Assembly (NCBI RefSeq): GCF_000026045.1
Contig: NC_007426.1
Span: 2,356,001 to 2,420,000 of the forward strand
Length of the DNA stretch: 64,000 nucleotides
Direction: 5' to 3'
DNA from: Natronomonas pharaonis DSM 2160
GTDB lineage: Archaea; Halobacteriota; Halobacteria; Halobacteriales; Haloarculaceae
The position numbers and the translations under genes were made by a program. Position 1 is the first letter of the stretch, and every line of letters starts with the position of its first letter. The notes beneath the pieces are model-generated. The model did no database searches, was not told the DNA's origin, and worked only from the letters and a program-made list of their open reading frames with translations. Below, in pieces: positions 12,964-55,018 of the stretch.

Positions 12964-13800
12964 ATGACACGCAGCGTGCTCGTGCCGTCGTCTCTGACCC
13001 GGGAAGCCGAGGACAAACGCGAGGCGACTCGCAAACTCGGCTACGTCGCCCGTGCGGCGACGGTCTTCCGGGTCGACCGCCTCGTCGTCTATCCCGACCG
13101 GGATGGCGACGACGGCCGGTTCGGCGACGGGTTCGTCAGCACCGTGCTGGAATATGCCGCCACGCCCGCATACCTCCGAAAAGAGGTTTGGGACAGGCGG
13201 GGCGAACTGGAGTACGCTGGCATCCTGCCACCGCTCCGCGTGCGTTCACAGACCGGCTCCGGATCGGACGGTTCGGGGTCGTTAAGACAGGGAATCGTGA
13301 CCGAGGTCGGACCTGACGGGCGCGTCCGGGTCAATTGCGGAATGCAACACCCGATCTCTCTCCCCGTCCCTCCCTCGATGGAGGTCGGGAAGGGAGAGCG
13401 CGTCACCATCAGGGTCTCTTCGCGAGAGCCGGTTCGCGCAAAGCTCGTCGACGAATCCCCACCGGGATTCGCCGTCGACTGTGCGACCATCGAAGCCAGT
13501 CTCGCCCGCCCGGACGCCGGCGTCCGTATCGCCGCGTCCCGGCATGGGGAGACGCTTTCGGTCGACCGTCTCGACGGTATCGTCGGTCGGACGACCGCCA
13601 ACGGATTCACGGTCGCCTTCGGCGCCCCCGAACGGGGGCTGCCGGAGATACTCGGCTGTGAGCCTCGCGAGGAGGCTATCGGCGATGAGCCCGAAGCGCG
13701 GTTCGACCTTTGGCTCAATACGGTTCCGAACCAGGGTAGTGAGGTTGTGCGAACGGAAGAAGCGTTGTTCGCCACCCTCGCGCCCCTCACACTGGAGTGA
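12964..13800 (+). CDS. SPOUT-class RNA methyltransferase (DUF171-like)
   Basis: A 278-aa protein of the SPOUT superfamily found directly upstream of L3 in archaea. The N-terminus (MTRSVLVPSSLTREAEDKREA) and the C-terminal knot region (FTVAFGAPERGLPEIL, near residues 215-230) fit a SAM-binding trefoil-knot methyltransferase, with an OB-like insert around 90-160 (GIVTEVGPDGRVRVNCG). A role in rRNA modification is inferred from its place at the head of the ribosomal operon; L3 starts five bases after its stop. Confidence 0.88.
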   Translation: MTRSVLVPSSLTREAEDKREATRKLGYVARAATVFRVDRLVVYPDRDGDDGRFGDGFVSTVLEYAATPAYLRKEVWDRRGELEYAGILPPLRVRSQTGSGSDGSGSLRQGIVTEVGPDGRVRVNCGMQHPISLPVPPSMEVGKGERVTIRVSSREPVRAKLVDESPPGFAVDCATIEASLARPDAGVRIAASRHGETLSVDRLDGIVGRTTANGFTVAFGAPERGLPEILGCEPREEAIGDEPEARFDLWLNTVPNQGSEVVRTEEALFATLAPLTLE

Positions 13801-35204: not shown

Positions 35205-35275
35205 GGGACCGTGGGGTAGTGGTATCCTCTGCGCATGGGGTGCGTTGGACCCGTGTTCGAATCACGGCGGTCCCA
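35205..35275 (+). tRNA. tRNA-Pro(GGG)
   Basis: Cloverleaf with acceptor GGGACCG/CGGTCCC, D-arm GGGT/ATCC, anticodon loop ATGGGGT (anticodon GGG, G37 as usual for proline), T-arm CCGTG-TTCGAAT-CACGG and discriminator A. The last pair of the anticodon stem (27-43) is a T-T mismatch in this reading. Confidence 0.93.
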
Positions 35276-43039: not shown

Positions 43040-44158
43040 CTACAGCTTCGGTCCCGACTGTGACTGCGGCGACTCGTCAACCGGACTCTTGTCCTCCTCA
43101 CGGCCAAGCTCAAGCATGTCGGCGACTTTGAGACGGTTAACCTCGCCGAGTCGGTCGGCAATGTCGGTCATGACCGACTGTGCAGCGTCCTGAACGGGGC
43201 TTGCATCCAGCTTGACTGCCGGAAGTTCGCTCCCGTCGGCACCGAAGTCCTCGTGAATCGGGAGCTGACCGAGCAGTTCGACATCGTAGCTTTCGACCAT
43301 CTCCTCGGCCCCGCCGCGGCCGAACGGGTCGTGTTCGTCGCCACAGCTCGGACAGTGGTAGCGGCTCATGTTCTCGACAATGCCGAGGACAGGCGTCTCG
43401 TGCTTCTCGAAGAGCCGCAGCCCTTTCCGCGCGTCGTCGACGGCCATCTCCTGTGGCGTCGTGACGATGACGACACCGGCAACCGGCAGTGTCTGAACGA
43501 GGTCAAGCGAGGCGTCGCCGGTCCCGGGCGGCAGGTCAACGACCAGATAGTCGAGCGCGCCCCATTCGACGTTCTCGAAGAAGTGAGTCATCACGTTGTT
43601 GACCATCGGCCCACGGAGGATGGCCGGGTCGTCTTCCTCTTCGAGGAGAAAGCCCATGCTCATGACCTTCACGCCGTCGGCGGTCGGCGGGACGATTTTC
43701 TCATCGGGGGTGACACCGGGCTGTTCCTCGACCGGCAGGACGCGGGGCGCGTTCGGGCCGTGGATGTCGGCATCAAGCAGGCCGACACGGGCACCGAGCT
43801 CGTCGAGCCCGGCCGCGAGGTTCGCGGCAACGGTCGTCTTCCCGACGCCGCCCTTGCCGGAGGCGACCGCGACGACGTTCCGGACGTTCGGCATTACTTC
43901 CTCGTCGAAGCCGTGCTCGCGGCCGACCTCGGCGTAGAGGTCAGGTTCGAGGCCCACATCGGAGACTGCCGCACGGATTTCGTCGCCGAGCTCCAGCTCT
44001 GCCGGGGCGAACGGCGTGTTGAACGCCAGCGAAATCGACGCCGTCCCGTCGTCGATTTCGACGTCGTTTATCAGCTGCATCGACAGGATATCCTCGCCGA
44101 CGATCGGGTCTTCGATTTCCCGGAGCCGCGCTTCGAGTTCGTCTTCGAGTTCGGTCAT
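43040..44158 (-). CDS. mrp: Mrp/NBP35-type FeS carrier P-loop ATPase
   Basis: 372 aa. An N-terminal DUF59/MIP18-like domain (about 1-85) is fused to a P-loop ATPase with GKGGVGKTTVAANLA, DADIHGPNAPRVL and a CPSC motif (YHCPSCGDEHDPF) that holds a labile FeS cluster. It delivers FeS clusters to apoproteins; several FeS enzymes lie just downstream. It ends one base from the TFS stop. Confidence 0.95.
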   Translation of the reverse strand: MTELEDELEARLREIEDPIVGEDILSMQLINDVEIDDGTASISLAFNTPFAPAELELGDEIRAAVSDVGLEPDLYAEVGREHGFDEEVMPNVRNVVAVASGKGGVGKTTVAANLAAGLDELGARVGLLDADIHGPNAPRVLPVEEQPGVTPDEKIVPPTADGVKVMSMGFLLEEEDDPAILRGPMVNNVMTHFFENVEWGALDYLVVDLPPGTGDASLDLVQTLPVAGVVIVTTPQEMAVDDARKGLRLFEKHETPVLGIVENMSRYHCPSCGDEHDPFGRGGAEEMVESYDVELLGQLPIHEDFGADGSELPAVKLDASPVQDAAQSVMTDIADRLGEVNRLKVADMLELGREEDKSPVDESPQSQSGPKL

Positions 44159-44269
44159 CTGATTGTCCGTTTGAAGGGCTCGCGGACGTATGAGACTTTA
44201 CTTTCCGGCCACGAGAAGAAACATCGAAATCGGGTTGTTCGGCGGTCGATACGTCGTCTCAGGTGGGGG

Positions 44270-44488
44270 TCACATCGCCGGCGGAAGCACGATGCCGAGC
44301 AGTTGGGTCAGGATGTAGAGTCCGACCCACATCGAGACGATGATACCGATGAGGTAGCTGAGCCCCATCAGCGACGTCTTGATGGTGCGCGGTTTGCCGA
44401 GGAACCACGCGAGGACGACCGTATAGACCGGCAGTCCGATGACGGCGAAGATGACCCACGTGCCGGGGTAGATGAATTCCCACGTCAT
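44270..44488 (-). CDS. Small membrane protein of the ferredoxin/NrfD module
   Basis: 72 aa with two transmembrane helices (about 8-28 and 40-65), short loop GKPRTIKTS. The ATG overlaps the NrfD stop by one base (TAATG), so it is co-translated with it and probably an accessory subunit of the same membrane complex. Confidence 0.75.
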   Translation of the reverse strand: MTWEFIYPGTWVIFAVIGLPVYTVVLAWFLGKPRTIKTSLMGLSYLIGIIVSMWVGLYILTQLLGIVLPPAM

Positions 44489-45828
44489 TAGTCATCAGCC
44501 TCCGAATGACCGTGGCCGTCGCCACGGAGGTGTTCAATCGCGTGCAGTTCGATGACCGGGAACAGCTTGAGGACGGCCATGAAGAACAGGGTACACAGCG
44601 CGATAGTCCCTGCAACCGACGCCAGCTCGATGGGGCTGGGGAAGTAGTCGCCGGGCACGCTGTAGTACATCCCGAAGGTCGGATACTGCAGTCCCTCGAC
44701 GACGAAGAAGACCTTCTCGACGAGGGTGCCGACAAGCACCATGACACTCGCGATAATCGACCGGGTCGCGGTGAAGTACTTCTCAGGCTTGACCGCCTGT
44801 GCGAAGATGTACGCCAGCGCGATGATGACGAGGCCGATAGCGAACCAGTAGACCGGCGAGGTGATCTTCGCCATCGTGACGTACGCCTCGTCGACAGGGG
44901 CGGCGTAGACGCCGGTGATAATCTGCTGGAGCTGGAGCCACAGGAACAGCAGGCTGAACAGTCCGAGCCACAGAGTTAGCCCCTGAACGACCTTGTCAGT
45001 CAGGATGTGATACCAGTCGTAGCCGCGGCGGAGCACGGTCGACAGGATGATGACGCCGGCCAGCGCGGAGGTCAGCGCGATAGACAGGAACTGCGGCCCC
45101 TGCACAGCGCCGTCCCAGCCGGGCATCGACGGCACCAGCGCGAACAGCCACGGAATCACACCACCGTGGAGCAAGAGCGGCGCCATGACGATGATACCGA
45201 GCGCGAGCCACCAGACCATCCGTTCGATAATCTGGTCTTCCTTTTTCGTGTAGCCGATGGTCATCACCTTGTAGAGCGGCTCAAGCTTGTTCGGGAGGTC
45301 ATCCCGAAGCCGCGTCATGTCGTAACGAAGCGTCAGTGCCAGATACGTGGCGGTCATCACCATGTAGAGGGTGATGACGGTCACGTCCCACACGAGCGGC
45401 GACTGGTGGACAGTCACCGGGTATGAATCGACGATGCTCGTGACCATCCGGTCTGGTCGGCCCATGTGGACGACAATGTAGAAGCCGGCCATGCTCAGCG
45501 CGCCGAGCGTCAACAGCTCTGCGAGTCGGGCGACCGGCTGGTATTTTTTCATACCGAACAGCCGGACAGCCGCAGAGAGGATGATACCGCCGTGGGCGAT
45601 ACCGACCCACCAGATGAACGCGCCGATGTAGAGACCCCACGTGACGCCGCCACCGGAGCCCCAATCGGAGAGGTTCGTAACCGCGAGCCCACGGTCGACC
45701 TGATAGAGCCACAGGCCGATCCAAGCGAGCCCGACAACGGCCGCGAGGGCGAAGACGATGTAGAATTTCTTGCCCGTTGTCTGCATCGGACGGACGATAT
45801 CGTCCGTACTAGGTGTTTTCGAGGACAT
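44488..45828 (-). CDS. NrfD/PsrC-type membrane quinone-interacting subunit
   Basis: 446 aa with about ten transmembrane helices, of the polysulfide-reductase NrfD family that exchanges electrons with the quinone pool. Conserved pieces include FIWWVGIAHGGIILSA and YHILTDKVVQGL. It is coupled by overlapping start/stop codons to the ferredoxin-like protein upstream and the 72-aa protein downstream. No molybdopterin subunit is in this operon. Confidence 0.88.
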   Translation of the reverse strand: MSSKTPSTDDIVRPMQTTGKKFYIVFALAAVVGLAWIGLWLYQVDRGLAVTNLSDWGSGGGVTWGLYIGAFIWWVGIAHGGIILSAAVRLFGMKKYQPVARLAELLTLGALSMAGFYIVVHMGRPDRMVTSIVDSYPVTVHQSPLVWDVTVITLYMVMTATYLALTLRYDMTRLRDDLPNKLEPLYKVMTIGYTKKEDQIIERMVWWLALGIIVMAPLLLHGGVIPWLFALVPSMPGWDGAVQGPQFLSIALTSALAGVIILSTVLRRGYDWYHILTDKVVQGLTLWLGLFSLLFLWLQLQQIITGVYAAPVDEAYVTMAKITSPVYWFAIGLVIIALAYIFAQAVKPEKYFTATRSIIASVMVLVGTLVEKVFFVVEGLQYPTFGMYYSVPGDYFPSPIELASVAGTIALCTLFFMAVLKLFPVIELHAIEHLRGDGHGHSEADD

Positions 45829-47273
45829 CAGTCATCACCCGTCCCGAAGGTCAGCTGGTCGAGGTGCTCTTTGCGGTCGTCCTGAACGCCGATCTGCTCG
45901 TAGGTGACCGGGCCCTCAACCTGCTCGGCTTCGGGGCCGGGCTCGTTGCCGAGGTACGTGACGTTCGGCTGGGTGCCGAGGTCATCGAGCAGCTTGAACG
46001 CCGAGAGCTTGCCGCCCCACGGCGTGTTGGATTCGCCCCAGTCTTCGTCGATGTCGACGTTGTTGGTCTCGCCGTCTTCGTTTTCGAGGGCTTCCTCGGC
46101 GCGCTGCTCGAGGAACTGGTTGGGCCGGCTGTCGGGGTCGTTGACGTCGCCGAAGTGAATGGCGCTCATGCCGGCCGTGTCGCAGGCCTCCATACAGGCG
46201 ACGGTACCGACCTTCTCTTCGCCTTGGTGACCATCCTGCCGGGACGGACAGAAGGTACACTTGCCCATGGTACCCTGCGCTGGCCGCATGTCGTTCCACT
46301 GGCCGCGCTCGTCGTGGAGGTGGTCGTCAGTCTCTTTGAGGTGTTCCTGTCGTTCCTCATACGGCATCTCCTTGAGCTCGTCGTAGTCGTTTTCGGAGCC
46401 GGGGAGGTCCTCGTATGGAACGTCGGGTTCGCCCCACTGGAAGTAGTTGACACCGTACGGACAGGCGACCTGACAGTATCGGCAGCCGATACAGACCTCG
46501 TAGTTCGTCAACACGAGACCGTCCTTGTCGCGGGTGTGTCGGGCCCGAACCGGACAGACCTTCTCACACGGCGCGTTCGAACAGTGCTGGCAGGGCCGAA
46601 CGAGGAAGTTCTCCTGTTCTGTCTGCTCGTCCTCGTAGGTGAGGACGTACATCCAGTTTGCACCCTCCGAGGTCTGGTTCTCCTCGATACAACCCGTGAC
46701 ACACTCCAGACAGCCGTCACAGCGTTCGAGGTCAATGACCATCCCCATCTGGACATCGTCGTCGTCGCCCGTGTCCGATACGGGGTTGTCACCGTACTCG
46801 TCGTCGGTCGGGCTGGCGGCGCTCGCGACACCGCTGAAGCCGAGCGCCGCAGCACCGGCACCCATCTTCTTCATCGTGTCTCGACGGGTCTGGTCAGTGT
46901 CGGGGTCGAAGTCGGACAGCTTCCCGACAGTACCGTCCTCGCCAGTGAGCCGCTGGAAGAGACCTCCGTCGTCGGACTCCATCTCTTCCTCGTAGGCCTC
47001 GGCAGTCGGGCGGTCGTCGACATCGAACTCCTCGACGACCGCGTCGTTGTATCGGTCGTGGAACTCGGCTTCAGAGAGTTCGCCCTGAATGAGCCGCATG
47101 GCGTCTTCCGCCATCTCCATGCCGAGGTCCGCATCGTATTCGGTCTCCTCGAGCTTCTCTCGCATCTCCTCTTCCCATTCTTCACCCATGGGATGGAACG
47201 ATTCGTCCGTTGGTTCGTCGTTGCTCCCGCAACCGCAACTGTCGCGGTCGCAGGATGAGTCGTCACTGTTCAT
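45828..47273 (-). CDS. Four-cluster 4Fe-4S ferredoxin-like subunit with internal Tat motif
   Basis: 481 aa. Residues 8-15 are Cys-rich (CDRDSCGC). Residues 25-85 form an acidic helical domain. An internal twin-arginine-like stretch (TRRDTMKKMGAGAAALGF) lies at 129-146. The FeS domain (about 185-345) has four cysteine groups: CDGCLECVTGC, CQHCSNAPCEKVC, CIGCRYCQVAC and CTFC...CMEAC. It resembles DmsB/PsrB-type electron-transfer subunits with an unusual N-terminal extension. Confidence 0.85.
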   Translation of the reverse strand: MNSDDSSCDRDSCGCGSNDEPTDESFHPMGEEWEEEMREKLEETEYDADLGMEMAEDAMRLIQGELSEAEFHDRYNDAVVEEFDVDDRPTAEAYEEEMESDDGGLFQRLTGEDGTVGKLSDFDPDTDQTRRDTMKKMGAGAAALGFSGVASAASPTDDEYGDNPVSDTGDDDDVQMGMVIDLERCDGCLECVTGCIEENQTSEGANWMYVLTYEDEQTEQENFLVRPCQHCSNAPCEKVCPVRARHTRDKDGLVLTNYEVCIGCRYCQVACPYGVNYFQWGEPDVPYEDLPGSENDYDELKEMPYEERQEHLKETDDHLHDERGQWNDMRPAQGTMGKCTFCPSRQDGHQGEEKVGTVACMEACDTAGMSAIHFGDVNDPDSRPNQFLEQRAEEALENEDGETNNVDIDEDWGESNTPWGGKLSAFKLLDDLGTQPNVTYLGNEPGPEAEQVEGPVTYEQIGVQDDRKEHLDQLTFGTGDD

Positions 47274-47334
47274 TGATAATCACCGTAGCGTGCCATCGAA
47301 CGTCCGCGGCCGCCGGGCGTCGCCGACGGAACGG

Positions 47335-47745
47335 TCATTCGACGATCACCGCGTGTCCGCGCTGACGGTCGGCTCGTAGGTAACACAGAGAAAGTACCTC
47401 CTCGTCGAAGACGTGGTCGAATGAGACTCCTCGGCGACAGCCGGAGTCGGTGCCGCGGGTGGAGCAGGAGCTATCACCGCACCACTCCAGGACAGCCTCC
47501 GCCCCGCCGGAAACCTCGATGGCAGGAGGTCGTAGGGCGGATGCCTCGTCCGCTTCGACGAATCCGTACGGTAGTCGAACACCGGTTTCGCCCGTCGTGT
47601 CTGCGAACGGCGCTCCAGCGCCAGCGTCGCCCGAGGACGCGGGCTGGTCGTCGCCGACCAATGGGTAATGAGCCGCCGGGCCGTCGGCTGTGCTCGCCGT
47701 GGGTCCATCGGTGAACGTCCGCCTCTCGACACCGGGCGCTGCCAT
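47335..47745 (-). CDS. Cys-rich hypothetical protein, first gene of the ferredoxin/NrfD operon
   Basis: 136 aa. The start at 47745 is 27 bp after a TATA-like TTTAATAT, strong evidence for a leaderless gene; the longer frame from 47769 needs a TTG. The N-terminal half is Ala/Gly/Ser-rich, the C-terminal part carries four close cysteines (EWCGDSSCSTRGTDSGC) and LCYLRADRQRGH. The family is not recognised. It ends 61 bp before the ferredoxin-like gene. Confidence 0.6.
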   Translation of the reverse strand: MAAPGVERRTFTDGPTASTADGPAAHYPLVGDDQPASSGDAGAGAPFADTTGETGVRLPYGFVEADEASALRPPAIEVSGGAEAVLEWCGDSSCSTRGTDSGCRRGVSFDHVFDEEVLSLCYLRADRQRGHAVIVE

Positions 47746-47764
47746 CACTCGGGGTGTTTGACTG

Positions 47765-47776
47765 GACAATATTAAA
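47765..47776 (-). promoter_or_regulatory. TATA element of the ferredoxin/NrfD operon
   Basis: Minus-strand AGTATTTAATAT is centred about 27 bp before the ATG at 47745. Confidence 0.55.
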
Positions 47777-48664: not shown

Positions 48665-48945
48665 ACTTAAGCGTATCTCCGGGCGGAACCGACATGGCTG
48701 TCGAGCGCCTACGACCGGCCGGCCGATGACGAGGCATCCGGGCCGAGTCGGTGTAGGCAGCCGGCAGCGACGAGCCCTATGAGTGCCGAGGCCGCTACTT
48801 TTGACGGTAGACAACGTCTCTGGGAGTATCTGGTCGTGGCCGCGGTAGAGATAGGCCCCGGTCAGGTTCTCATCGGGCGAGCAGACACGGATTTATTTAT
48901 CGGTCGTCAGAGGCACCACAGCAACGGCGGAGGGCAAACCAGCGG
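48665..48945. other. Intergenic stretch without a supported gene
   Basis: Apart from the TATA-like element of the zinc-ribbon gene near 48665-48672 and an AT-rich patch at 48890-48900, I see nothing here. One plus-strand frame from 48779 runs into yqeC antisense and has no protein-like composition. Confidence 0.4.
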
Positions 48946-49668
48946 TCAAACAACATCGACGACTTCGGGTGTCGCCATCCGCGCCAGCACGATAGCCTCG
49001 ACATCGGCTCTGTCAGCAATCGCGTCGGCGATAGCGCGGGCGGTCCGTTCGTCGGCCGCGTCGTCAACCTTGTTGATAAGGGGGATGGCGCGTGCGCCGT
49101 CCGGGATATCCTTCAGACCGCCAGCCTCGTCGGCGACGACCGAGCCCACCGTCTCCGGAGTTATTTCGTCGCCGATATCGATGTCGGCCAGCGCGGCGAC
49201 TCGCTCCGGCCGGTGGACGTGTGTCTCATCCAGCGGCTTCCCGACCGCGTGGGCGCTGACGACCGGAACGACCGTTGCTGTGCTGGCCGGCAGCTGTGGC
49301 TCTCGGTTGTTCGGCGCTTTGAACTCTCGGGTGCGCGCGCCGTCTGCTTTCACCAGTACAGGACCGTCGTGGGCGTCGGCGACCGCATCGACAATTTCGG
49401 GGCCGTAGCCGCGGTAGCGGTCGCTGCGGTCGTGGCCGGCGACGAGCCCGAGCGGGTACGGCGGGGCAGCGTCGAGTTCGGCGACCGGGTCGTCGGTGAC
49501 TCGGACCGACGCAACCTCGCGGTCGAAGATGGGTATCCGAACCGTTGCCGTCACGATGGGCTGGTCGAGCAACCCTGCCAGCGCATACAGCGTCGTCTTC
49601 TTGCCGCCGGCACCGACCAGACAGGTGACACCGTCGGCGGCCGAAAGCGCCGCTACGATGTCGGTCAC
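48946..49668 (-). CDS. yqeC: YqeC-family P-loop protein, putative Mo/Se hydroxylase accessory factor
   Basis: 240 aa. The P-loop-like LVGAGGKKTTLYALAG at residues 17-32 and the central VKADGARTREFKAPNNREPQLP are YqeC hallmarks. In bacteria the family accompanies selenium-dependent molybdenum hydroxylases; its exact reaction is unknown. Here its start overlaps the TorD-like chaperone stop (ATGA), tying it to the formate-dehydrogenase-like operon. Confidence 0.85.
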   Translation of the reverse strand: MTDIVAALSAADGVTCLVGAGGKKTTLYALAGLLDQPIVTATVRIPIFDREVASVRVTDDPVAELDAAPPYPLGLVAGHDRSDRYRGYGPEIVDAVADAHDGPVLVKADGARTREFKAPNNREPQLPASTATVVPVVSAHAVGKPLDETHVHRPERVAALADIDIGDEITPETVGSVVADEAGGLKDIPDGARAIPLINKVDDAADERTARAIADAIADRADVEAIVLARMATPEVVDVV

Positions 49669-50306
49669 GGTTCAGTTCGCGGCGTCCCCGTGTCCAGATA
49701 GCTCGGTGCGAGGTCGTCGAGTTCGAGCCCGAGGAGATAGGCGTCGGCCTCGACGGCCCCCTCGGCGAGCCATCCGACTGCCTCGTAGAAGGTGTCGTCA
49801 GTGAGCTCCTTGATGTCGGCAGCGGCGGCCGGCAGCCACCAGCCGTGCGCCGAGAGGAACGCCCGCCGGTAGTCGTCGGCCCCGTCGCGGGCGAGCATTT
49901 CGAGGGCGGCGAGTTCGACCGCCACGTGGTCGGGTTCCTCACGGAGATGCTCGGAATGCTCGATGCCGAGGTCGCGGTAGGTCTGTTTGACCGCCGCCAA
50001 TGGCTCGCCCAGATAGTCGTCGGCATACCACGATTCGTGGGCCTGCATCTTCGGCCGTGGGCCGACAAAGAGCCGGGTGTGAACCCGCTTGAGGCGGTCG
50101 GCTTCTTCAGCCGGGTCACTGACAGTCGACTGCCACTTCGAGAGCAGTCGGTAGCCGTTGGCGAGCGCTTGCGGTGACGCGTCAGTCGGGAGCTGTTCAC
50201 TTGCGAGTCGGTCGACGGCCGCCTCGCTCGGTGGGTCCGCGAGGACCCCCGAGAGGAAGGCATACAGGTCGGCGAGGTCGGCCGCCGTGTCGGCTGGTTG
50301 TGTCAT
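49665..50306 (-). CDS. TorD/DmsD-family molybdoenzyme chaperone
   Basis: 213 aa, all-helical TorD-like protein (LADLYAFLSGVLADPPSEAA; RLFVGPRPKMQAHESWYADD; YLGEPLAAVKQTYRDLGI). It should bind the alpha subunit's Tat leader and help cofactor loading before export. It lies 55 bp after the NrfD-type gene and overlaps yqeC. Confidence 0.9.
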   Translation of the reverse strand: MTQPADTAADLADLYAFLSGVLADPPSEAAVDRLASEQLPTDASPQALANGYRLLSKWQSTVSDPAEEADRLKRVHTRLFVGPRPKMQAHESWYADDYLGEPLAAVKQTYRDLGIEHSEHLREEPDHVAVELAALEMLARDGADDYRRAFLSAHGWWLPAAAADIKELTDDTFYEAVGWLAEGAVEADAYLLGLELDDLAPSYLDTGTPRTEP

Positions 50307-50361
50307 AGGAGCGTTGAAATCGTGTATGGAACGCGGTGATAAACAGGTTGGCCCTGCGCCG

Positions 50362-51465
50362 CTACATCGGGAGCGGCAGCGGCGTGAACTCGGCGGCGAG
50401 GATGTAAACGAGCGCGAGCGCTATTTTGCCGGCGACCGCGAGAGCGCCGGCGAAGACGTACGATGCCGCGGTGACATCATCGGGGAGCGCTCCGGACCGC
50501 TGTGCGAGCGCACTGCCGCCGAGGAAGATGGCAGGCAGGACCATCCCGCCGACGATAGCGACGCCGATAAAGAGGCCAGCGTACGTCGTCAGCATGTTGT
50601 TGACTGCCTCTGCCGCGGCCGGGGCCTGTCCGGGCAGCATCGTCACCGTCGCAAGAACGGCCAGCAGGGAGCCCACGAGCAGCCCGGAGGCCGCAAGGGC
50701 ATACGACTGGAGCGTCCGCCCCGGCGAGCGGGTCGCAAGCGCTGTCAGCCCGACGGCCGCCGCCAGCCCGGCACCGAGGCCGCTGAGTATCTGAACGGGA
50801 ATCAGGAACGTTTTGTCCCACAACGGCACCCGGTTGGTGGCACCGGAGCCGAGCGCCATCGCCGAGTACAGCAAGACACCGGCGGCGAGTACGCCAAAGA
50901 ACGCACCGAGGCCGAGCCGTATCTTCTCGGACGGCCGGGTGATATCGGCCAGCCGGTCAAGCAGGTCAAGCAGACCGACACGGTTGGCGACGCCGCGGAC
51001 GCCACCGCCGACAGTCCGTCCGCCGGTCGCTGTCTCCGCCGTACCGCCGTCGGAGGCAATATCCGTGCCGCCGTCGGCGACCGCCGGTCGATTGGGCCGC
51101 TCCTTCCCGAAGGCCGTCCAGCCGAACATCAACAGCGCGCCAAGGCCGAACCCGGCGATGAGGTACGACCCGATAGCCATCCACGAGCCGAGGTTCGACA
51201 TCGTAAACGGGAGCGCCATCGCCCGGAACGGCGTCGCGAGGTGAGACAGCATAATCGGCGGGCTGATAGCGATGACGAGCAGGCCGGTCAGATAGCCGTA
51301 TTTGGCGAGCTGGCCGTGCTCGACTGACTCCCGTCGCTTCGAGAGCACGTCAGCGACGTAGGCGGTCAGGTACGCGCCGCCGGCAAGGCCGATGAGCGCG
51401 ACGTATTGGGCGATTTTCCAGTCCCACTGCGTGTACGGTTCGTTGAAGATTATTTCGAGTGGCAT
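50362..51465 (-). CDS. NrfD-type membrane anchor of the formate-dehydrogenase-like complex
   Basis: 367 aa with about eight to nine transmembrane helices (QYVALIGLAGGAYLTAYVAD near the N-terminus; FTMSNLGSWMAIGSYLIAG). NrfD/PsrC family, transfers electrons between the FeS subunit and menaquinone. Its start is seven bases after the FeS subunit stop. A soluble loop near residues 125-165 is Gly/Thr-rich and looks like a lineage-specific insertion. Confidence 0.9.
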   Translation of the reverse strand: MPLEIIFNEPYTQWDWKIAQYVALIGLAGGAYLTAYVADVLSKRRESVEHGQLAKYGYLTGLLVIAISPPIMLSHLATPFRAMALPFTMSNLGSWMAIGSYLIAGFGLGALLMFGWTAFGKERPNRPAVADGGTDIASDGGTAETATGGRTVGGGVRGVANRVGLLDLLDRLADITRPSEKIRLGLGAFFGVLAAGVLLYSAMALGSGATNRVPLWDKTFLIPVQILSGLGAGLAAAVGLTALATRSPGRTLQSYALAASGLLVGSLLAVLATVTMLPGQAPAAAEAVNNMLTTYAGLFIGVAIVGGMVLPAIFLGGSALAQRSGALPDDVTAASYVFAGALAVAGKIALALVYILAAEFTPLPLPM

Positions 51466-51472
51466 GGGTGAA

Positions 51473-52072
51473 TCACTCCGATATCACGCTGTCGGCGTCG
51501 TCCCCGAAGACGATGCGGGCGGCCTCCGGTTCGAACGGCGTCGAGGTGCCCTCTTCGTCGAGCTTCTCGGAGAGTTCATCCGGCGTGCCGAAAAGCAGCG
51601 CGTCGGTCGGACACTCCGAGGAGCAGGCCGGTTCGAGGTCTTCTTCCTGTCGGGGCTCGCAGGTAGTACACTTGTCCATCAGCCCGTTGCCCCGTGCGCC
51701 GAGGGGGTTCATCTCGTCGGCTTCCGGGACCTCGGCGTCGGGGTACTGCGGCGCGCCGAACGGACAGCCGACGCCGCAGTAGTGGCAGCCGATACAGAGG
51801 TCGCCCGATACCCGCACGGTGCCGTCGTCGCGGAACAGGAGGGCGTCGGTCGGACAGACATCGACACAAGGGGCCTCGGCGCAGTTGTAACACTGCATCG
51901 GCTTTTGGGCCTCGTCTTCGGTGCCATGTTCGAGGGCGACGACCTCGATGCGGTTCGTCTCCGGCGGGAGGTCCCACGTTCGCTGGCAGGCGACCTCGCA
52001 GGCGCCGCAGTCGATACAGGACTCCCAGTTGGGGATGACTCGGGCCGTGTCGTTGGATTGGTTGGTGCTCAT
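51473..52072 (-). CDS. Four-cluster FeS subunit (DmsB/FdhB-like)
   Basis: 199 aa, with four cysteine groups: CIDCGACEVACQRTWD, CYNCAEAPCVDVCP, CIGCHYCGVGCP and CTTCEPRQ...CSSECP. It links the molybdopterin subunit to the membrane anchor. No signal peptide is seen; export probably occurs as a complex with the Tat-carrying alpha subunit. Its start lies six bases after the alpha-subunit stop. Confidence 0.93.
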   Translation of the reverse strand: MSTNQSNDTARVIPNWESCIDCGACEVACQRTWDLPPETNRIEVVALEHGTEDEAQKPMQCYNCAEAPCVDVCPTDALLFRDDGTVRVSGDLCIGCHYCGVGCPFGAPQYPDAEVPEADEMNPLGARGNGLMDKCTTCEPRQEEDLEPACSSECPTDALLFGTPDELSEKLDEEGTSTPFEPEAARIVFGDDADSVISE

Positions 52073-52078
52073 TGTCGG

Positions 52079-55018
52079 TTACCGTTTGTGTCGGTTCATA
52101 CGCTGTTCCTGCCAGTCGAGCTGCGTCTGGGACAGCTCCGGAATCTCATCGTCGTCGGCGGTCCGGACGCTACAGAGCGTCGTCTTCGTCTCCTGCATCT
52201 GCGTTTCGACGTCGTAGGCCGGTGCAGTACCGGCGTTGATGGTTTCGCCGATGACGAGCGGTTCGAGCCCATCGGGGACGTTGCCCGTCACTTTCTCGCC
52301 TTCGAGGATACCGCTCCAGTGGAACGGGGCAAAGGCGTGGTCCGGTGCGACCCGCTCGGATGGCCGAGCCTGAACCATCATCTCCGCATGCGGCGTCTCG
52401 GTGACTATCCAGTCACCCTCCTCGACACCGAGTTCGTCCGCGACCGTCGGATGGATCTCCAGGTACATCATCGGCGCCCGCGAAGCGGTCCCCAGCGTAC
52501 TCCGGGTCTTCGCTCCGGCACCGGTGTGTTCGACCTGTCGGCCGGAGGTGAGCACGAGGTCGTAGTCCTCGACGGCATCGATGTTGTCCTGCTGGACCTG
52601 GTAGTTGTCAAGTTCGACCCGCCAGTGGTCCTCAACCCGGTCGTTGCAGGGATACTCCTCGACAAGGTCCGGCCGCGGCGAAACGGCCGGCTCCCGGTGA
52701 ACCGGGTACTCGTCGGTGAGATTCCACGCCTTCATTCGTGCCCGGCCGCGCCCCCACGGCGAGTCGGGCTGTGGGTTGTCGAAGTCCTCGTAGTCAGACA
52801 CGTCGATGTCGTGGCCCCGCTCGGCGAGTGCTTCGGCGGTGTCGAGTACCGACGTGTCTTCGCGTTCGGCGTACTCCATCGGGAGTGTCTTTGCGGCTGG
52901 GTTCCCGGACTCCGGAAGAACCGTCGCGAAGCCGGGATACTGTGGGACACCCTCGATTTCGCCGTCCCACCACTCCGGCTCATAGGAGTCTCTGAGCTGC
53001 CAGTTGTCATCCGGGCTTCCCCACCAGCGAGCGCGGAAGTCCATACCACCCTCCGAGGGTGGCTTCGAGGCGTCGTAGAGAATCGGCGTCCCGGGGTGGT
53101 CCTCGTGCCAACAGGGCCACGGCAGCCCGTAGTACTCGCCGTGGAACTCGTGGGCCTCGTCGACCTCGGCCTGGAGGTCCTCGACACTAAACAGGTCGGC
53201 GTTTTCCTGGTGGGCCTTCAGCCGTTCCGGCGTCTGGCCGACGTAGCCGACCGAGCGGGTCCCGAGGTTCCACTCGCGGGTGACGTCTTCGACCTCGTCG
53301 TAGTCGAAGTGTTCGCCGAGGCCGAGGCGTTCGCCGAACTCACACATCAGCTCCCAGTCTTTTCGGGCGTTGTGTCGGGGCGTCGCCGCCTGGCTCCGCC
53401 ACTGAATCTGTCGGCCGGTGTTTGTCGCGCTGCCGGCCTCTTCGAGATTCGTCGCCGCCGGCAGCAGGTAGGCGTCGGTATCCATCTCGGCGAGTTCGGC
53501 AACCTGGTTCGGGAAGATGTCGATGTTGACGATGAAGTCGAGTTCGTTCACCGCCTCGCGGACCTTCCCGTACTCGCTGAGCGAGGCGAGCCCGTGGCCC
53601 CAGAAGATAGCCGCTTGGAGCGGGTCCGGCTGGTAAATTTCCCACTCGTCGTCGAGAACACCCTCGAACCAGCGGGCGACGGTGAATCCGTCTTTTTCCA
53701 TCAGCTCTCGGGAGTGGAACCGTTCGCGGACCTCCTCGTAGCTGATTTCGCCAGGGGTGCTTTCGGTCTCCGACCAGACACTCGCCCAGTGGCGCCACGC
53801 GCTCTCGTCGAGCCCGTAGTAGCCCGGCAGTGTACTCGAATCGACGCCGAGGTCGGTCGCGCCCTGCACGTTGTCGTGGCCACGGAAAATCGGTGTGCCA
53901 CCGGCCGACTGGGCGGCGTGGCCGAGCGCGAGGTTGAGCATCGCGTAGGCACGGACGTTGCCGTTGGCGTTGTTGTGCTGGGTGCCGCCCATCGCCCACT
54001 CGACGCAACTGACGTCGGCGTCGGCGAGTTCCTCGGCGAGTTCCATGAGGTCCGATTCGGAGGTGCCACAGATGTCCGAGACGGTTTCGAGGTCGTAATC
54101 GACCAACACGTCGTCACGGAACTCCGCCCAGTCCATCACACGGCTGTCGATGAACGCCTCGTCGTGGGCGTCGAGATTGAAGACGATGTGGTACAGCAGC
54201 CCGTAGATGAACGCCACGTCCGTCCCCGACCGGAACTGATAGAATCCGTCGGCGGCGGCCGCCGTTTCGGTGTACCGCGGCTCGGCGACGATGTGCTTGC
54301 CGCCGCGCTGTTGGGCAACCTGGAAATGCTGCCAAGCGACCGGGTGGCTCTCGATGGGGTTGTGGCCGATAATCAGGTTGACATCGACGTTGCGCATGTC
54401 GTTGGAGTTGTTCGTCATCGCGCCCACCCCCCACGTGTTCGCGATGCCGGTCACGGTCGTCGAGTGACAGATACGCGCCTGGTGGTCGATGTTGTTCGTC
54501 CCGTACAGCGAGGCAAGCTTGCGGATGAGATATGCGGCCTCGTTGCTGTGACAGGCCGAGCCGACCCACATCGTCGCGTGTGGCCCCGTCTCCTCGTGGA
54601 TATCGTTGAGCCGGCCGCAGATTTCGTCGAGAATCTCGTCCCAGTCCATCCGCACCCAGTCGCCGTCCTCCAGCTTCATCGGCTCCTTGAGGCGCTGTTC
54701 GGAGTTCTCCGTCTGCGTGAGCGACGACCCCTTCGAACAGAGCCCACCCTGATTGATGGGGTTGTCCTCCCACGCCTCCTGGCCGACGATGGTGTCGTCT
54801 TCGACGGCCATCTTCAGTCCACACCCGACAGAGCAGTGGGTACAGACCGTCTTGACGAGCTCTTCGCCCGTATAAGGCGGTCCGTCGTCACCCGCCGCGT
54901 CGTCCTGTGCCCCACCGCGTTCGAGTAGCGTTCGTCCCCCGACTGCTGCAGCGAGTGTCCCTGCGGCCCCCGCCTTGAGGAACCCCCGCCGGTCAAGGTC
55001 GAGTGTTGAACGTGACAT
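52079..55018 (-). CDS. Formate dehydrogenase-like molybdopterin oxidoreductase, alpha subunit
   Basis: 979 aa. A Tat signal (DRRGFLKAGAAGTL) opens the protein, then the 4Fe-4S motif CTHCSVGCGL...GGLCSKG (about 58-95). The segment HSNEAAYLIRKLASLYGTNN, DHQARICHSTTVTGI and GHNPIESHPVAWQH closely follows formate dehydrogenases; the metal ligand is a cysteine (TGT codon) in RICHS, not selenocysteine. The C-terminal molybdopterin-dinucleotide domain is present. It heads a five-gene operon with FeS, NrfD, TorD and YqeC. Formate is the most likely substrate, but another DMSO-reductase-family substrate is possible. Confidence 0.88.
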   Translation of the reverse strand: MSRSTLDLDRRGFLKAGAAGTLAAAVGGRTLLERGGAQDDAAGDDGPPYTGEELVKTVCTHCSVGCGLKMAVEDDTIVGQEAWEDNPINQGGLCSKGSSLTQTENSEQRLKEPMKLEDGDWVRMDWDEILDEICGRLNDIHEETGPHATMWVGSACHSNEAAYLIRKLASLYGTNNIDHQARICHSTTVTGIANTWGVGAMTNNSNDMRNVDVNLIIGHNPIESHPVAWQHFQVAQQRGGKHIVAEPRYTETAAAADGFYQFRSGTDVAFIYGLLYHIVFNLDAHDEAFIDSRVMDWAEFRDDVLVDYDLETVSDICGTSESDLMELAEELADADVSCVEWAMGGTQHNNANGNVRAYAMLNLALGHAAQSAGGTPIFRGHDNVQGATDLGVDSSTLPGYYGLDESAWRHWASVWSETESTPGEISYEEVRERFHSRELMEKDGFTVARWFEGVLDDEWEIYQPDPLQAAIFWGHGLASLSEYGKVREAVNELDFIVNIDIFPNQVAELAEMDTDAYLLPAATNLEEAGSATNTGRQIQWRSQAATPRHNARKDWELMCEFGERLGLGEHFDYDEVEDVTREWNLGTRSVGYVGQTPERLKAHQENADLFSVEDLQAEVDEAHEFHGEYYGLPWPCWHEDHPGTPILYDASKPPSEGGMDFRARWWGSPDDNWQLRDSYEPEWWDGEIEGVPQYPGFATVLPESGNPAAKTLPMEYAEREDTSVLDTAEALAERGHDIDVSDYEDFDNPQPDSPWGRGRARMKAWNLTDEYPVHREPAVSPRPDLVEEYPCNDRVEDHWRVELDNYQVQQDNIDAVEDYDLVLTSGRQVEHTGAGAKTRSTLGTASRAPMMYLEIHPTVADELGVEEGDWIVTETPHAEMMVQARPSERVAPDHAFAPFHWSGILEGEKVTGNVPDGLEPLVIGETINAGTAPAYDVETQMQETKTTLCSVRTADDDEIPELSQTQLDWQEQRMNRHKR

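Follow-up and report, generated by a model that had tools for sequence, protein, structure and literature searches.

The haloarchaeon Natronomonas pharaonis DSM 2160 carries a small gene module that is probably a minimal, heme-free menaquinol:halocyanin oxidoreductase taking the place of the cytochrome bc1 complex, as judged from gene content, protein kinship and genome comparison. The window analysed here is the whole stretch of 64,000 nucleotides from position 2,356,001 to 2,420,000 of contig NC_007426.1 (assembly GCF_000026045.1), and coordinates refer to it unless another locus is named. The conserved unit occupies 43040-47273 on the minus strand and runs in the order iron–sulfur (FeS) protein, NrfD-type membrane subunit, 72-aa protein with two transmembrane helices (2-TM) and Mrp/NUBPL-type ATPase (Table 1). 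One base is shared at each of the FeS/NrfD and NrfD/72-aa junctions, and 111 bases separate the 72-aa gene from the ATPase gene. A sequence-only reading of this stretch had already listed the FeS protein, NrfD and the 72-aa membrane protein, and had pointed out that a catalytic subunit is missing; the gene map of the window indeed places none in the module operon. The same reading had overlooked the fourth gene, the Mrp ATPase, which lies beyond the piece it described.

The question that the module bears on is a published one. According to a passage of PMC8305020, about one-third of haloarchaea, especially the Natrialbales, have no complex III equivalent, and the path of their electrons is ‘currently unresolved’. 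An excerpt of PMC3403918 reports bc1 as absent in Haloterrigena turkmenica, Natronomonas pharaonis and Natrialba magadii, and states that the transfer to halocyanin ‘remains unresolved’. In the open-access literature, we found no work linking halocyanin with NrfD in haloarchaea or NrfD with Natronomonas, and no ‘halocyanin oxidoreductase’. As for an alternative complex III in haloarchaea, the accessible passages of PMC6176080 and PMC10100899 do not propose the module in that role.

The distribution of the module among genomes is where the argument starts. Cytochrome b (PF00033) was found in 223 of 292 Halobacteria genomes, leaving 69 without it, and the NrfD subunit was found in 96 at E < 1e-140 (101 at 1e-60). 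The two largely exclude each other, with 67 genomes carrying NrfD only, 29 both, 194 cytochrome b only and 2 neither (Fisher 5e-40, a value that ignores kinship). A similar picture is given by the FeS protein, which has homologues in 109/292 genomes at E ≤ 1e-40 (FeS only 67, both 42, cytochrome b only 181, neither 2). When the genomes are grouped into 77 genera, 20 have NrfD without cytochrome b and 41 have cytochrome b without NrfD; as for the rest, 13 have cytochrome b throughout together with NrfD in some or all genomes, 2 are mixed in cytochrome b and 1 has neither. Because the 67 NrfD-only genomes are spread over four families (f1, f3, f10 and f11), several independent losses of cytochrome b are likely. 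Within the window's own genus (20 genomes), all seven genomes with a closely related FeS protein lack cytochrome b (G302 among them is a 75% complete genome); the other 13 comprise 10 with cytochrome b only, 2 with both and a divergent FeS protein, and 1 with neither, which is 67% complete.

With 67 of the 69 cytochrome-b-less genomes carrying it, the module is a concrete and deletable candidate for the step from menaquinol to halocyanin. The two genomes with neither NrfD nor cytochrome b (G007 and G093) match neither COX2 nor halocyanin, and therefore have no evident need for such a step. COX2 was present in 26 of the 29 cytochrome-b-less genomes tested for COX2 and halocyanin, namely 27 with the module plus G007 and G093. 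The full CuA motif, C-x3-C-x3-H-x2-M, is kept in all 30 COX2 loci read from cytochrome-b-less genomes, which fits oxidases that receive electrons from a one-electron carrier and not from quinol; these loci are mostly the best hit per genome and biased to CuA, so they establish the presence of CuA oxidases and not the absence of quinol oxidases.

The NrfD subunit is kin to ActC of alternative complex III in both sequence and fold. A profile of 15 NrfD proteins gave four distinct sequence matches in the Protein Data Bank (PDB), all of them ActC (E 4e-29 to 1e-25). The protein has 10 predicted helices of at least 20 residues, and its AlphaFold model (predicted local distance difference test, pLDDT, 82; predicted template modelling score, pTM, 0.86) compares best with ActC (Z 38.6-40.2, template modelling score 0.80-0.84), followed by ActF (Z 27.7) and PsrC (Z 20.4). 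Foldseek ranked the hits in the same way, four ActC first, then ActF and then PsrC; no family beyond ActC, ActF, PsrC and bd oxidase ranked high, which excludes nothing. The available part of PMC8076601 names His139, Ser164, Asp169 and Asp253 as the quinone-site residues of ActC. The first three correspond to H121, S143 and D148 of NrfD in a profile alignment mapped by eye, and nine of the 13 N-side channel residues in the same list are identical (H79, S85, R101, E104, T107, Y155, D170, R175 and D176). In that text, ActC and ActF are listed for bacterial groups alone, and 42 archaeal sequences of group C go by the name ‘DmsC’; some of these may be module NrfD.

The FeS protein contains 16 conserved Cys in four groups and the motif T129-R130-R131, in agreement with the earlier description of a four-cluster protein bearing a twin-arginine-like motif at residue 129 instead of at the N-terminus. 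The arginine pair is kept in 38/38 homologues, the window's included, at residue 82-134, positions that depend on N-termini partly shortened by choice of start codon; R130 and R131 are invariant in 16/16 aligned proteins. The top PDB match of the FeS profile is 6cz7_B (E 2e-44), which we take to be the FeS subunit of arsenate reductase, and the next is the C-terminal part of ActB (6f0k_B, E 8e-41). No CXXCH heme motif occurs in the translated module proteins.

For gene order, 39 usable neighbourhoods and 77 more were taken, chosen from hit lists and not at random, and 110 NrfD loci were scored with flanks of about 4 to 10 kb. The FeS gene lies directly upstream of NrfD in 81 of them, including two loci of a sister clade described below, L053 and L057. 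The 72-aa-type small protein accompanies all 81 pairs and the Mrp gene 74. The count missed the FeS gene at L044, although it is visible in the gene-order map, and left out seven FeS loci without an NrfD match (L049, L050, L055, L067, L068, L071 and L072). All 29 NrfD loci without an adjoining FeS gene (28 without L044) come from family f3, in genomes with at least two NrfD matches. Natrialbaceae (f3) hold, at L195-L249 (28 loci), a second NrfD copy without module neighbours. Their second FeS copy, at L049, L050, L068, L071 and L072, adjoins a membrane protein of another kind (65-74 aa), and the two extra copies may make up a split second complex.

Among the 81 FeS–NrfD loci, a halocyanin gene stands immediately upstream in the same orientation, within 600 bases, in 10, and one more case occurs at L283. 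The probability of 10/81 is 2e-11 under a generous assumption of 13 halocyanins per 2500 genes; the cases cluster in few genera. Halocyanin is adjacent in 3 of 50 cytochrome-b-less loci versus 7 of 31 others. The copper nitrite reductase gene NirK lies within 4.5 kb at 13/81 loci (8/50 cytochrome-b-less versus 5/31 others). Since only 10 of the 81 loci show it, halocyanin adjacency was demoted from main to supporting argument. Taken with the genome profile, the neighbours point to menaquinol and halocyanin as the partners, so the pair no longer looks like the orphan, in need of a donor or acceptor yet to be found, that the sequence-only reading had made of it. Elsewhere in the window's genome, at 773232-774685 (L185), a copper nitrite reductase gene is immediately followed by a weak halocyanin match.

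A trace of halocyanin may also be preserved upstream of the module in the window itself. The 136-aa open reading frame at 47335-47745 had been taken for a leaderless, Cys-rich first protein of the operon, an idea that its features do not support. It has only 4 Cys, and its coding score is -0.04 per codon (other frames of the stretch, -0.31 and -0.40), compared with 0.33 to 0.46 for the FeS gene, the 72-aa gene and the flanking gene; the training set held the FeS gene and the flanking gene but not the 72-aa gene, which scores 0.43. The frame matches the halocyanin model TIGR03102 weakly (E 3.6e-5; 23.8 bits, far under the cutoff of 93.8), a genome-wide search with this model met the site at 47335-47769 again (E 2.9e-4), and a profile built from 10 halocyanins encoded near modules matches it at 18.9 bits. 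In the alignment with halocyanins, the type-1 copper ligands, His and the Cys-x2-His loop, are not kept. In nine other congener loci the stretch ahead of the FeS gene was searched (just 140 bases in one of them), and two (G036 and G049) show halocyanin-like remains at the equivalent spot (phmmer 31.5 and 28.7 bits). We read the frame as a decaying halocyanin gene.

In the mechanism that we propose, the Mrp ATPase would probably supply clusters in the cytoplasm, and the FeS protein, once loaded, would be exported by the twin-arginine translocation (Tat) system via its internal signal. Menaquinol would be oxidised at the outer face of NrfD, at a site formed by the three residues shared with ActC, and its electrons would pass from NrfD to the exported FeS protein, whose four clusters would relay them to halocyanin. 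From there, they could reach CuA-type oxygen reductases or copper nitrite reductase. All results here are computational, and menaquinol-dependent reduction of halocyanin is the activity that they predict.

The module would work like alternative complex III (ActABCDEF), but it is no member of that family. It shares with it the ActC-type NrfD, closest by PDB sequence and fold, with three of the four listed quinone-site residues, a FeS domain matching the C-terminal part of ActB and, as in Chloroflexales, a presumed blue copper acceptor; an alternative complex III that donates to the blue copper protein auracyanin has reportedly been published for phototrophs. Unlike alternative complex III, neither the 481-aa FeS protein nor the operon has the molybdopterin-like half of ActB, and the c-type heme subunits ActA and ActE are missing: a six-frame search of the 110 NrfD loci met only 2 segments with two CXXCH motifs and none with more. 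ActF is missing too, as the module has one NrfD and the genome a single module-NrfD match at 1e-60. What the module has instead are the small membrane protein, Mrp and the internal Tat signal. The FeS–NrfD pair also recalls complex iron–sulfur molybdoenzymes (Psr, Phs, Arr and Ttr type); relatives at L282, L094 and L057 combine a Tat-bearing molybdopterin subunit with related FeS and NrfD proteins, whereas the module lacks the catalytic molybdopterin subunit. With the haloarchaeal cytochrome bc1/b6f complex (PetABD) it would share only the job, menaquinol to halocyanin; the protein families differ, and the two systems are largely exclusive in genomes, both occurring in 29/292.

The internal position of the Tat motif, one explanation of which had been a relic of domain fusion, can probably be traced to genes that stand apart elsewhere, and a fusion relic is what we hold it, with good confidence, to be. 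The domain preceding the motif, PF16947, was searched over 60 relatives' genomes and matched in 23 of them at 40 places, 13 of which are short open frames. These 13 stand-alone frames (71-94 aa) lie in 12 loci (L270-L281), and in 12/12 the PF16947 gene is directly upstream of a gene for a Tat-bearing molybdopterin subunit, usually overlapping it. At L272, a second copy lies in tandem ahead of the first; the molybdopterin gene of L270 was recognised by eye and later matched by a query, and that of L273 is split into two open reading frames. The product of the stand-alone gene probably assists haloarchaeal molybdoenzymes in Tat export or maturation, and the gene's place upstream of them offers a second testable lead.

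Several loci show how such genes are arranged outside the module clade. L282 has the order PF16947 gene (81 aa), Tat-bearing molybdopterin subunit (911 aa), FeS (285 aa, no Tat), NrfD and Mrp (two open reading frames), and its FeS protein reaches 319 bits to the module FeS profile versus 94-176 in the other stand-alone loci. L094, without PF16947, has Tat-bearing molybdopterin subunit, FeS, NrfD, small protein, TorD, an Fe-S protein and Mrp. L057 (7528-12493, genome G128) is an intact operon of a Tat-bearing molybdopterin subunit (944 aa, CWIGKQDC motif), FeS and NrfD; G128 holds both this sister-type operon and a fused module (L056). L053 (6897-11527) is a variant that has fused FeS, NrfD and small protein but no Mrp gene, with an EB_dh (PF09459) gene nearby. 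In the Bathyarchaeal L103 (252-5837), NiFe hydrogenase genes lie beside, and divergent from, Tat-FeS, NrfD and small protein, and here the Tat signal is at the N-terminus of the FeS protein. In the NrfD tree, which was rooted at the midpoint and in which L282 sits on a long branch, the 17 module proteins group together with 100/100 support; L282 and L053 with L094, and then L103, fall outside this clade, and a quick tree joins L057 to L094 and L053.

Whether a catalytic gene adjoins the module in close relatives and is merely displaced in the window, as would speak against an orphan pair, was searched for with nine molybdopterin-subunit queries, which recovered 19/19 control loci. Three of the 110 NrfD loci gave a match: 4.8 kb upstream in the window's separate operon, about 8 kb away at L066, and directly upstream of FeS at L057. 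Within these flanks, none of the nine queries placed a molybdopterin subunit directly beside a module of the module clade. In the sister clade this subunit does stand directly beside FeS–NrfD (L057 and L094; also L282), and therefore its loss, rather than displacement, is likely. The simplest story would be an ancestral molybdoenzyme operon of PF16947 gene, Tat-bearing molybdopterin subunit, FeS, NrfD, small protein and Mrp (a composite of L282 and L094) that lost the molybdopterin body, whereby PF16947, the Tat signal and FeS became one protein. Two observations tell against so plain a course. The fused PF16947-Tat-FeS protein of L053 groups with the unfused molybdopterin complexes L057 and L094, a placement at odds with one clean fusion and loss; either the event occurred twice, or there was a transfer, or the tree is in error there. 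In addition, three PF16947-FeS fusions (L286, L287 and L289) have no RR, which weakens a Tat-only role of PF16947; two of these, L286 and L289, are followed by a large subunit that bears Tat.

A menaquinol:halocyanin oxidoreductase has to be weighed against a number of results that do not favour it. In NrfD, Asp253 of ActC is not kept and aligns with L228 (mapped by eye), and only two of six P-side channel residues in the list of the PMC8076601 excerpt are identical. The predicted structure of the FeS protein is poor (pLDDT 57.7, with a confident helix at residues 31-83 only) and was set aside as evidence. Of the 29 cytochrome-b-less genomes, only 10 have a halocyanin match above the curated cutoff (27/29 at E 0.001); 71 of the 81 loci have no adjoining halocyanin gene, and 7 of the 10 genomes with adjacency also have cytochrome b. 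G128 carries the module but no COX2; NrfD and cytochrome b occur together in 29 genomes, so the module is not only a replacement; and the Rieske protein (PF00355), tried as a second marker of the bc complex, matched 31 of 35 genomes, did not discriminate and was rejected. Finally, the best NCBIfam models for FeS and NrfD are DsrO (143.4 bits, cutoff 200) and DsrP (79.8 bits, cutoff 350), which could suggest a unit like the DsrOP part of DsrMKJOP, linking the quinone pool by electron exchange to a sulfur compound or other redox partner in the periplasm. We regard this as very improbable, for both scores are below cutoff, no DsrMKJ was seen, and the gene-order maps, in which some clusters are unannotated, show no sulfur-metabolism gene as a conserved neighbour.

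The other two explanations deserve more attention, though we think neither likely. The module could be the quinone anchor of a catalytic dehydrogenase or reductase encoded elsewhere, much as related FeS–NrfD pairs serve molybdopterin subunits at L282, L094 and L057, with hydrogenase genes adjoining at L103 and an EB_dh gene near the pair at L053. A partner at hand would be the formate-dehydrogenase-like operon just upstream, at 48946-55018 on the minus strand, which comprises a Tat-bearing molybdopterin subunit, FeS, NrfD, TorD and a further gene, presumably YqeC. However, this operon has its own FeS, NrfD and TorD, and no such operon lies beside other modules of the clade, so formate dehydrogenase was rejected as the partner. 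The scarcity of molybdopterin matches in flanks of about 4 to 10 kb, none of them directly beside a module of its clade, also speaks against an anchor, and the near-exclusion of cytochrome b would be left unexplained. Alternatively, cytochrome-b-less haloarchaea might respire with quinol oxidases and do without complex III, the module being a side branch that feeds copper nitrite reductase only, in denitrification. A passage of PMC6176080 describes natronoarchaea as without complex III and its alternatives and as using quinol oxidases, a view put forward for AArc strains, which counts against the oxidoreductase that we favour. The NirK genes near the module agree with such a branch, as does the higher frequency of NirK (E < 1e-50) in genomes with NrfD and cytochrome b (23/29) than in those with cytochrome b only (103/194; p 0.009, uncorrected), and halocyanin adjacency is mostly found in genomes that also have cytochrome b. 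On the other side, NirK occurs in only 35 of the 67 NrfD-only genomes, and the CuA ligands, read from best hits biased to CuA, are complete in all 30 COX2 loci read from cytochrome-b-less genomes. The CuA result and the module argue against the view in that passage as a general rule, and a side branch of this kind seems to us of low probability.

We see about an even chance that the full account holds, in which three proteins make up a heme-free complex III by which bc-less haloarchaea breathe, with an ActC-like quinol oxidase and a four-cluster FeS protein that delivers electrons directly to a copper protein, and in which this complex arose from a molybdoenzyme through loss of the catalytic body, the remaining Tat signal and accessory domain being fused to the FeS subunit. 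If true, the published question of how electrons pass from menaquinol to halocyanin in Natrialbales and Natronomonas would be answered, and an enzyme like alternative complex III would be brought into Archaea. The module would, to our knowledge, be the simplest quinol:cupredoxin oxidoreductase, and a case of a redox enzyme re-purposed through loss of its catalytic subunit.

Table 1. Features of the module and its upstream region in the window (Natronomonas pharaonis DSM 2160).
Feature	Coordinates	Strand	Match or conservation
FeS protein, four clusters, 481 aa; PF16947, internal Tat-like signal and ActB/ArrB-like ferredoxin domain	45828..47273	-	
PF16947 (Ferredoxin_N) domain of FeS protein, residues 27-91; stand-alone gene elsewhere	47001..47195	-	113.7 bits
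Internal Tat-like signal of FeS protein, residues 129-152 (TRRDTMKKMGAGAAALGFSGVASA)	46818..46889	-	RR 38/38; R130, R131 invariant 16/16
Region of four [4Fe-4S] ligand groups of FeS protein, residues 185-364	46182..46721	-	
NrfD/ActC-like membrane subunit, 446 aa; putative quinol oxidation	44488..45828	-	PF03916 90.4 bits
Small membrane protein (2-TM), 72 aa	44270..44488	-	present in 81/81 FeS–NrfD loci
Mrp/NUBPL-type Fe-S carrier ATPase, fourth conserved gene	43040..44158	-	PF10609 302 bits, PF01883 38.5 bits
Putative decaying halocyanin (blue copper) gene; the 136-aa open reading frame (ATG at 47745)	47335..47769	-	TIGR03102

Three further elements were noted on the plus strand of the window. 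ARAGORN predicts a tRNA-Pro(ggg) at 35205-35275, for which there is no Rfam call at the gathering cutoff. An L4-Archaeoglobi ribosomal protein leader is matched at 13313-13412 (74.1 bits), though the host is a haloarchaeon. At 48721-48793, Rfam finds the C/D box small RNA sR-tMet (56.1 bits).

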